The notes under the pieces were generated by a model that was not told the origin of the DNA, searched no databases, and was given only the letters and a program-made list of their open reading frames with translations. Positions 14,302 to 49,270 of a stretch of 64,000 bases of DNA are shown here, one piece after another; the stretch's first letter is position 1, and each line of letters begins with the position of its first letter. Origin of the DNA: Haloplanus sp. GDY1 (GTDB lineage Archaea; Halobacteriota; Halobacteria; Halobacteriales; Haloferacaceae); contig NZ_CP098514.1 of NCBI RefSeq assembly GCF_023703775.1, positions 620,001-684,000 of the forward strand, in the 5' to 3' direction. The position numbers were made by a program, and so were the translations under genes.

Positions 14302-14362
14302 ATGGGCGCTGCAGGATTTTGAACCACGGTCGCTCGCTGCGCTCGCTCCCTGATTCAGATCC
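14302..14362 (-). repeat. tRNA-Arg(TCG) 3'-end copy folded into a hairpin module
   Basis: Starts with ATGGGCGCTGCAGGATTT(T)GAACC, the tRNA 3' end with one extra T, 105 bases from the real one. It continues with CACGGTCGC, a GCTCGCTGCGCTCGC-type stem, and CTCCCTGATTCAGATCC, whose end partly reverse-complements the tRNA T-arm part. The order and the flanking words match the module at 49098-49159 near a different tRNA. Confidence 0.65.
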
Positions 14363-14408
14363 GTCGCGGTACATCTTCCGCTCCTCACTTCGTTCGTCGC
14401 GGAACGAT

Positions 14409-14482
14409 GGGCGCTGCAGGATTTGAACCCGCGACAATCTGGTCCGAAGCCAGACACTCTGTCCAGGCTGAGCTAAGCGCCC
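14409..14482 (-). tRNA. tRNA-Arg (anticodon TCG)
   Basis: The minus strand folds into a complete cloverleaf: acceptor GGGCGCT/AGCGCCC, D stem GCTC/GAGT, anticodon stem TCTGG/CCAGA with loop CTTCGGA (anticodon TCG after U33), T stem GCGGG/CCTGC with loop TTCAAAT. It is 74 bases, intronless and without encoded CCA. A TTTAAC-type box lies near 14505-14510, upstream on the minus strand. The 3' end faces the accessory island (8.1-14.4 kb), the usual side for integrations. Confidence 0.95.
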
Positions 14483-46226: not shown

Positions 46227-46356
46227 CGTCCCGGGGGCGTTCCACGCGAGCGGATGCGGGCGTGGGGCTCGTCGGGAGCGAACGAAGTGAGCGTCCCGGG
46301 GGCGTTCCACGCGAGCGGATGCGAGCGTGGGGCTCGGCGGGAACGAACGAAGTGAG
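46227..46356. repeat. Two tandem 65-bp palindromic repeats
   Basis: Units 46227-46291 and 46292-46356 are nearly identical. Each begins CGTCCCGGGGGCGT, like the tRNA-Arg(CCG) acceptor end, then CCACGCGAGCGGATGCG(G/A)GCGTGG (arms CCACGC/GCGTGG) and ends GAACGAAGTGAG. A third copy is at 46501-46565, directly next to the tRNA. Confidence 0.8.
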
Positions 46357-46440
46357 CGTCCCGGCGGCGATTTGAACTCGCCGAGACGGTCGGCCTCGCT
46401 CCGCTCGGCCGCTGCGTCTCGCCTGCTCAAATCGCGACGT
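46357..46440. repeat. tRNA-Arg(CCG) 3'-end copy inside a long hairpin
   Basis: CGTCCCGGCGGCGATTTGAAC is identical to the first 21 bases at the tRNA 3' end (46566-46586). The following 60 bases fold back: GCGATTTGA...GAGACG on the left pairs with CGTCTCG...TCAAATCGC on the right, enclosing an inner CGGCC/GGCCG stem. Confidence 0.7.
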
Positions 46441-46444
46441 CGTC

Positions 46445-46502
46445 CGTTTCTACCGACACGGACGCCTCGCTGTCGCTCGGCGTCGTAGTGTCGGTAGAAA
46501 CG
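46445..46502. repeat. Perfect 15-bp inverted repeat
   Basis: CGTTTCTACCGACAC (46445-46459) and GTGTCGGTAGAAACG (46488-46502) pair perfectly around a 28-base loop that is itself partly palindromic. It lies between the tRNA-like hairpin and the third 65-bp unit. Its role could be termination of the tRNA transcript or a recombination structure; I cannot decide. Confidence 0.7.
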
Positions 46503-46565
46503 TCCCGGCGGCGTCCCACGCGAGCGGATGCGAGCGTGGGGCTCGTCGGGAGCGAACGAAGTGAG
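46501..46565. repeat. Third 65-bp palindromic repeat, abutting the tRNA
   Basis: Same unit as at 46227 and 46292 with a few substitutions (CGTCCCGGCGGCGTCCCACG...GTGAG). The next base begins the tRNA 3' flank. Together the copies fill most of the gap between the 45850 gene and the tRNA. Confidence 0.75.
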
Positions 46566-46566
46566 C

Positions 46567-46638
46567 GTCCCGGCGGCGATTTGAACGCCGGTCCCTGGCT
46601 CCGGAAGCCAAGAGGATAGTCCACTACCCTACCGGGAC
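46567..46638 (-). tRNA. tRNA-Arg (anticodon CCG)
   Basis: Cloverleaf on the minus strand: acceptor GTCCCGG/CCGGGAC, D stem GGGT/ATCC, anticodon stem TTGGC/GCCAG with loop TTCCGGA (anticodon CCG), T stem CGGCG/CGCCG with loop TTCAAAT. 72 bases, intronless, no encoded CCA. A TATATA box ~30 bases upstream (about 46668-46674). Confidence 0.94.
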
Positions 46639-48838: not shown

Positions 48839-48915
48839 GTCCGGGCGGACGACCCCCGTCGACAAAACAACTGTGCAGCGTGGCGTCCCGGAGACGGTCC
48901 GTGTGGCTACCGGCC

Positions 48916-48975
48916 GTGGCGGGATTCGAACCCTACGAGACGAGCGAAGCGAGTCTCGGTCCGGTCCGAATCGCC
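48916..48975. repeat. tRNA-Arg(CCT) 3'-end copy in a hairpin, distal module
   Basis: GTGGCGGGATTCGAACCC copies the 3' end of the tRNA at 49199. It runs into CGAGAC-GAGCGAAGCGAG-GTCTCG-type stem and returns with CGAATC, complementing GATTCG on the left arm. Confidence 0.65.
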
Positions 48976-48980
48976 GGTAA

Positions 48981-49073
48981 CCGTTTTCGACGTCGCTTCA
49001 TTCGGTCGGAAAACGGGCGTGGCGGGAGTCCCGCGAGCGACCGTAGGGAGCGAGGGGGACTACGCCACGCGCG
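48981..49073. repeat. CCGTTTTC/GAAAACGG hairpin followed by a second tRNA-Arg(CCT) 3'-end module
   Basis: 48981-49016 is a hairpin with arms CCGTTTTC and GAAAACGG. It is followed directly by GGGCGTGGCGGGA (49015-49027), copied from the tRNA 3' end, which then pairs with its near-reverse-complement GGGGGACTACGCCACGC ending at 49073. Confidence 0.6.
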
Positions 49074-49097
49074 TCGAACGAACGACAGTGAGTGAGA

Positions 49098-49159
49098 CGG
49101 GCGTGGCGGGATTCGAACCACGGTCGCAAATCGAAGATTTGCTCCCTGATTCGAATCCC
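49098..49159. repeat. tRNA-Arg(CCT) 3'-end copy in a perfect hairpin, proximal module
   Basis: GGGCGTGGCGGGATTCGAACC equals the tRNA 3' end exactly, 101 bases away. GGGATTCGAA (49107-49116) pairs perfectly with TTCGAATCCC (49150-49159), with an inner stem GCAAATC/GATTTGC. The words GAACCACGGTCGC and GCTCCCTGATTC recur in the module at 14302 near another tRNA. Confidence 0.75.
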
Positions 49160-49164
49160 GATCT

Positions 49165-49200
49165 CCGTTTTCGATCTCGCTTCGCTCGATCAGAAAACGG
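49165..49200. repeat. CCGTTTTC/GAAAACGG hairpin bordering the tRNA 3' end
   Basis: CCGTTTTCGATCTCGC...GATCAGAAAACGG is the same hairpin type as at 48981-49016 with a different loop; it ends at the first bases of the tRNA. Could act as the tRNA terminator region and as the border of the duplicated unit. Confidence 0.65.
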
Positions 49201-49270
49201 GCGTGGCGGGATTCGAACCCGCGATCTAGAGGTTAGGAACCTCTCGCCCTATCCACTAGGCCACACGCCC
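49199..49270 (-). tRNA. tRNA-Arg (anticodon CCT)
   Basis: Minus-strand cloverleaf: acceptor GGGCGTG/CACGCCC, D stem GCCT/GGGC, anticodon stem AGAGG/CCTCT with loop TTCCTAA (anticodon CCT), T stem GCGGG/CCCGC with loop TTCGAAT. 72 bases, no intron, no encoded CCA. The gap 48839-49378 holds only this tRNA and its hairpin copies. Confidence 0.95.

Follow-up and report, generated by a model that had tools for sequence, protein, structure and literature searches.

Short hairpin units with copies of tRNA 3' ends behind tRNA genes of Haloplanus and other Halobacteria

Tandem repeats behind a tRNA are known from the tyrT operon of E. coli, where each of the long rtT repeats includes a short stretch copied from the tRNA 3' end. 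The attC sites of integrons are characterized by the R-box GTTRRRY, and REP/BIME sequences are short palindromes that occur in both orientations in arrays and form a strand-specific hairpin. These last features are shared by the PATEs derived from IS200/IS605, as described in PMC3119063. Imperfect single-strand hairpins with a variable terminal stem, arranged in tandem, are found in integron attC sites and CALINs, in archaea as well (PMC9668308). Elements integrated at tRNA genes target the tRNA 3' end, keep the tRNA whole and leave a direct repeat of that end as the mark of integration, according to PMC8371274 (archaeal tyrosine recombinases) and PMC9897764 (tRNA fragments). Here, short hairpin units located behind tRNA genes are described from a 64,000-nt stretch of Haloplanus sp. 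GDY1 (contig NZ_CP098514.1, positions 620,001 to 684,000; hereafter the window) and compared with these systems. They appear to be miniature insertion units of a kind not yet described.

The units share with rtT the tandem arrangement behind a tRNA and the tRNA 3' end copies, but rtT consists of long repeats in one tRNA operon. The units described here combine one shared hairpin core with the tail of the tRNA that they follow, over more than 30 isoacceptors, and their arms covary. Rfam 15 at gathering score detected only tRNAs in the window and no known RNA family matched the modules, a null result that covers rtT too if it has an Rfam model. With attC sites and CALINs the units share imperfect single-strand hairpins, a variable terminal stem and tandem arrays. 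The arms of the units are conserved and their inner stem is variable and covaries; the R-box differs, the T-loop sequence GTTCRAA being found instead. No cassette-like genes were noticed between units in the arrays examined, integron integrase (IntI) not being among the searches made, and the term 'Halobacter' did not occur in the searched text of PMC9668308. A direct repeat of the tRNA 3' part flanks the insert, as in tRNA-integrated elements; the latter, however, measure kilobases and carry an integrase, whereas the units measure tens of bp (arrays, a few hundred), contain no integrase gene, keep a constant core at many tRNAs and have an inverted arm. From REP/BIME and PATEs they differ in that the tail tracks the tRNA, and in that the Y1 transposase is absent from four of 20 module-rich genomes. 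No published description of such units was found, subscription journals lying mostly outside the literature searched.

Architecture and distribution of the modules

A sequence-only reading of the window had claimed that modules at two tRNA-Arg genes (14302-14362 and 49098-49159) share their internal words and differ in their inner stems. Both type A words were exact in the two modules, GAACCACGGTCGC at 14321-14333 and 49115-49127 and GCTCCCTGATTC at 14345-14356 and 49141-49152, and the inner stems indeed differed. Taken singly and with two mismatches allowed, the words were not enriched in the window (four found vs 7.7 expected, and three vs 4.7), indicating that the signal is carried by their pairing and context. 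The relevant strand is the minus strand, and the module therefore lies downstream (3') of the tRNA gene. Read along the tRNA strand, the order is tRNA, spacer (about 45-55 nt, usually folding), 5' arm, CAGGGAGC, variable hairpin, GCGACCGTGG and a tail copy, which reproduces the last part of the neighbouring tRNA, beginning with the T-loop (TTCRA..) and running to the 3' terminus. The paired-word pattern was present at five places of the 3.4-Mb genome, all of them behind a tRNA (Glu-TTC, Arg-TCG, Arg-CCT, the intron-containing Arg-TCT, and Met), and its reversed control at none.

All features of the window given here are on the minus strand. The first module follows the tRNA-Arg(TCG) gene (14408..14482, called by ARAGORN and Rfam RF00005) after a spacer, H1 (14363..14407, from sequence and fold). 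Its 5' arm (14353..14362), supported by covariation across many modules, is partly complementary to the T-loop/T-stem copy and imperfect in this copy. The type A core (14326..14352; sequence and covariance model) comprises CAGGGAGC, the inner hairpin GAGCGCAGCGA and GCGACCGT, the hairpin having two Watson-Crick pairs, tandem G.A pairs and a GNA-type loop; repeat comparison placed the tRNA-Arg(TCG) 3' end copy, whose T-loop has one extra A, at 14303..14325. The second module is unit 1 of a three-unit array behind the tRNA-Arg(CCT) gene (49198..49270, ARAGORN) and consists of a spacer hairpin (H1, 49161..49197, by fold), a 5' arm that pairs with the tail copy (49149..49160; inverted repeat and covariance model), a type A core with the inner hairpin AAATCTTCGATTT (49120..49148; sequence and covariance model) and a tRNA-Arg(CCT) 3' end copy (49098..49119; direct repeat of 23 nt, 100%). 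A covariance model of the 11-nt class, based on 29 modules, recovered both, namely 14311-14366(-), itself a member of the model, with 67.2 bits (E 4e-16), and 49105-49162(-), outside the model, with 54.2 bits (E 2e-12).

The exact core was detected in 136 of the 392 genomes of the order, which belong to 53 of 95 genera; none of the 392 matched the reversed control. The 135 loci examined, a part of the places matched across these genomes, contained 148 modules, of which 141 had a same-strand tRNA 27-390 nt upstream. Removal of six duplicates left 142 unique modules, and 135 entered the tail test once the seven without a called tRNA had been dropped. In 117 of them the adjacent tRNA scored at least as high as every other isoacceptor, and in 101 strictly higher (mean 37.3 vs 19.9); the 18 failures had tails that were degraded or closer to another isoacceptor with a similar end. 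The earlier proposal of a constant core carrying the 3' end of whichever tRNA stands next to it was thus borne out; the outcomes named as contrary to it, absence of a conserved core or arms not tracking the adjacent tRNA, did not occur. A search of 84,980 species yielded at least 120 stretches. Among the matches listed, nearly all were from named haloarchaea, and the few bacterial ones had no tRNA context and were chance-like; once six non-haloarchaeal-looking matches had been set aside by eye (n = 125 - 6 = 119), 111 of the 119 modules likewise had a same-strand tRNA upstream, in a set that overlaps the first.

In the Haloplanus genome itself, 22 of the 44 tRNA genes examined with their flanks were followed within 450 nt by a copy of their own 3' end (score of at least 23), and no such copy lay upstream (0/44). 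The core end CGACCG[T/A]GGTTC was present in the downstream flank of 11 of the 44, and the 14-mer CGACCGWGGTTCRA had 11 copies in the whole genome. Hairpins with tandem G.A pairs and a GNA loop, counted on both strands, numbered 28 in the 9.9 kb behind the 22 tail-bearing tRNAs, four in the 9.9 kb behind the other 22, and zero in 19.3 kb upstream.

The two remaining units of the Arg(CCT) array, which the sequence-only reading had missed, are a type B unit (49014..49097) with outer arms from the acceptor end and a tail copy at 49014-49030, and a third unit (48911..49013) made of a spacer hairpin, a hairpin core and a tail copy at 48911-48932. In the former, the core hairpin with tandem G.A pairs is on the opposite strand, the type A model matching the plus strand at 49023-49065; in the latter, the core is inverted when compared with those that follow tRNA-Arg(CCT) in genomes G199 and G260. 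Also missed was the array behind the tRNA-Arg(CCG) gene (46565..46638, ARAGORN), composed of a type B unit (46501..46564), a type A-like unit with a full T-arm tail copy (46357..46500), which the type A model matched at 46364-46438(-) with an E value of only 0.66, and two further type B units with degraded tails (46227..46356). Types A and B are interleaved at two tRNA loci of the window, Arg-CCT and Arg-CCG. The tRNA-Arg(CCG) gene itself, called at 46565-46638(-) by ARAGORN, was absent from the Rfam tRNA model output at gathering score.

At L390, about position 1500(+), the tRNA-Leu in front of the unit is a 3'-half fragment instead of a complete tRNA, such as the integration of a larger element would leave. 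At L027, about 1500(-), and L254, about 2881(-), the core words occur in another setting (TTTTGCCAGGGAGC..GTGGTTCGAGAC), with no tRNA tail or arm and near other G.A hairpins. Loci L087, L035, L122 and L125 have second tRNA-Leu(CAA)-like copies with a long hairpin insert in the variable arm, followed by a normal T-arm and 3' end.

Fold and covariation

The 142 modules contained 87 distinct inner hairpins, in which 54% of the facing positions were Watson-Crick or G.U and 30% were G.A, the shuffled values being 31% and 24%, respectively. In the 11-nt class the frame is GA-NN-NNN-NN-GA, and the two inner pairs covary. Gap-free alignments, thinned by genus, hairpin and amino acid, were made for 29 modules of this class and 26 of the 9-nt class. 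Paired cells amounted to 93.8% and 90.4%, respectively, and cells changed on both sides numbered 43 and 26, where shuffles gave 13.2 and 10.7; the covariation scores were 0.254 vs 0.140 and 0.166 vs 0.099, and neither quantity was reached by any of 500 shuffles in either class. Further pair types did not exceed the shuffles in the 11-nt class, nor did they, or the pairs with both-side change, in the 9-nt class. The outer arm tracks the tail over about eight positions, with Watson-Crick pairing at positions 1-8 in 798 of 1136 cases, a value attained by 0/300 shuffles. The variable stem covaries inside a fixed G.A frame, and a T.G pair in the core is fixed. In type B the outer arms come from the acceptor end and the hairpin is on the other strand, where the type A model matches. 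That the module folds as a single strand is well supported; that this fold acts as RNA is not. A kink-turn reading of the G.A pairs was rejected, the required three-base bulge being absent by eye.

Filled, empty and non-tRNA sites

At tRNA-Leu(GAG), the genome of the window (G000, L344) has one hairpin after the tRNA, then GGTGATTCCC, and no unit. In G370 (L361) the tail and the hairpin are doubled, with arm and core between them, and in G260 (L347) the site is filled with a different hairpin behind the tail. At tRNA-Leu(CAA), twelve genomes of genus g2 were picked for lacking the exact core; the site was seen in nine of them, empty in all, with three variants of the first hairpin. At L117, one of these hairpin variants is separated from the tRNA by about 94 bp that include the core, between direct repeats of 23 nt. 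Behind this tRNA (L117:1650-2000) there is a dispersed repeat of about 340 bp, with dozens of matching places per genus g2 genome. For the TCG module of the window no clean empty site was found, three sister genomes having unrelated DNA behind tRNA-Arg(TCG).

The clearest case is a unit array away from tRNA genes. In G296, 11 tandem 50-bp core units lie between two genes, between copies of GTGGTTCGATCC, and tRNA calling in the 3 kb around found none. At the same place, G000 has the T-loop-like sequence TACTAGGGTGGTTCGGTCC (also given as GGTTCGGTCC) and no unit, G199 a close variant without unit, G260 a diverged sequence, and G370 other DNA. This one array suggests that the site is the T-loop box and not a functional tRNA.

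For the same isoacceptor, inner hairpins differed by a mean normalised edit distance of 0.154 within a genus (105 pairs) and 0.466 between genera (299 pairs). Different tRNAs of one genome gave 0.499 (97 pairs) vs 0.572 for random pairs of other genus and isoacceptor; this distance or a lower one was reached in four of 2000 permutations, and the sharing is modest. In two genomes, that of the window (Glu and Arg-TCT) and G202, a pair of tRNAs shared an identical hairpin. We read the units as probably old and mostly inherited, with rare copying between tRNA genes, and inheritance with the tRNA together with modest sharing within genomes suggests that current transposition is rare at best. The small palindromic mobile element of the sequence-only reading accordingly survives in part, since filled and empty sites and the ectopic array at a T-loop-like site are what an insertion unit would leave, whereas ongoing movement finds little room.

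Origin of the units and competing explanations

The architecture, the tracking of the tRNA by tail and arm, the species with and without a unit and the array at a T-loop-like box outside tRNA genes are direct observations; mobility is suggested by comparing sequences. We tentatively favour, somewhat short of an even chance, short gene-free insertion units of Halobacteria that are anchored at tRNA genes, their DNA being inserted or copied at the T-loop box by way of the folded hairpin core. The recognised form would be the core as a single-stranded hairpin, with its Watson-Crick pairs, tandem G.A pairs and small loop, which a trans-acting recombinase, or else replication and repair machinery, would link to DNA at GGTTCRA, the universal T-loop box (candidate target sequence GGTTCGATCC). 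The junction would keep the tRNA's own 3' end, leaving the tRNA gene whole and a second tRNA tail behind the unit, and the matching 5' arm may arise in the same event as a copy of the tail. Exchange between tail copies could then enlarge the arrays, and the units would probably be inherited for long times, new events being rare. A stronger version is doubtful: a class of protein-free miniature mobile units in which a haloarchaeal enzyme would splice the folded G.A hairpin into GGTTCRA of any tRNA gene and its look-alikes, the tRNA staying whole, its 3' end being taken on, and arrays accumulating after roughly half of a genome's tRNA genes.

Several observations weigh against insertion units. 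No joining enzyme was found and no gene is linked to the units, the exact core was not found in viral contigs, and the unit L003 had no match in plasmids or phages. Within a genus, most inner hairpins have been passed on together with their tRNA. At the tRNA sites the polarity (gain vs loss) is not proven, since recombination between tails would also delete units. The boundaries vary by case (tail only, tail plus H1, or 12-13 bp), which does not sit neatly with a single site-specific enzyme, and 33 of the 142 tails deviate from the canonical T-loop start. Finally, the sense-strand fold was lower than the antisense one in 138 of the 142 type A modules, which an RNA role explains equally well.

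Known partners and carriers were considered separately. The Y1 transposase (Y1_Tnp) of IS200/IS605 and REP/RAYT systems was present in 16 of the 20 module-rich genomes and absent from G115, G254, G251 and G312; it was rejected as a needed partner, past activity still being possible. Reverse transcriptase (RVT_1 in two of the 20) and Cas1, considered for a CRISPR or casposon link (three of the 20), were also rejected; neither is present in the window's own genome. Each of the three is missing from several module-rich genomes, indicating that none is needed now. A viral or plasmid origin was rejected on the null searches reported above.

The main rival holds that replication or repair accidents, with no dedicated enzyme, made the units: GC-rich hairpins behind tRNA genes would make the nascent strand turn back on itself and change template at the palindromic T-arm, copying the tail, an inverted arm and the neighbouring hairpin, so that the core is merely a survivor. 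It agrees with tandem units of many periods, with the doubled tail and H1 at Leu(GAG), where the hairpin lies at the junction, with the many tails whose T-loop junction is irregular by 1 nt, with inheritance alongside the tRNA and with the lack of a linked gene. Core words that recur unchanged behind the tRNA genes of 53 genera, however, need a constraint or a common donor, and the ectopic array has this same core at a T-loop-like site; accidents of this kind are a possible source, although we lean against them.

Next comes a structured RNA trailer, a tRNA transcript continuing into the units and folding into hairpins, with a role in 3' processing, termination or a stable small RNA, in which selection for pairing would make the arms follow the tail. 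The units always lie on the strand of the tRNA where one was called, and the lower sense-strand fold, the fixed T.G pair and the covarying outer stem would suit such a role. Outside the fixed pair, however, G.T was not favoured over A.C (34 vs 27, p 0.44), unlike what selection on RNA would give, and type B hairpins are antisense. In the own-genome count, G.A hairpins were sense in 12 and antisense in 16 cases behind tail-bearing tRNAs (one vs three behind the others). An earlier count of 51 sense and nine antisense was biased, its loci having been chosen for the module; it left out the bacterial chance loci L137, L147, L161, L163 and L185 (a sixth, L220, is similar by eye), and the own-genome count, which is unbiased, gave no sense bias. 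In addition, 22 of the 44 tRNA genes have no unit and one array has no tRNA. An RNA-only reading was rejected on the G.T to A.C ratio and the use of both strands, and the trailer explanation as a whole is unlikely.

Remnants of integrative elements, attL and attR left after loss of the element's inside, are far less probable still. Integration at a tRNA is recognised by direct repeats of its 3' end (PMC8371274, PMC9897764), and G370 has a real element of about 10 kb in tRNA-Glu(TTC), between the tRNA and a hairpin unit (C7:1343109-1353260; L358 and L359). Its att copy, however, lies directly before the unit and reaches into the anticodon arm, much longer than the 20-23 nt tail of the unit, indicating that ordinary integration and the units are separate phenomena. 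The same core at more than 30 isoacceptors, 5' arms that track the tRNA and the lack of any viral or plasmid carrier found also speak against remnants. A retron-like or other reverse-transcribed element, as the sequence-only reading had suggested, is largely refuted by the rarity of RVT_1 noted above and has next to no probability, the likeness of hairpin plus tRNA tail to a primer-bound template being a resemblance only.

If the units are inserted as we tentatively propose, they would offer a natural system for T-loop DNA recognition and single-stranded hairpin insertion. For annotation, the 3' flanks of Halobacteria tRNA genes that carry tail copies can mislead searches for att sites, islands and tRNA fragments.
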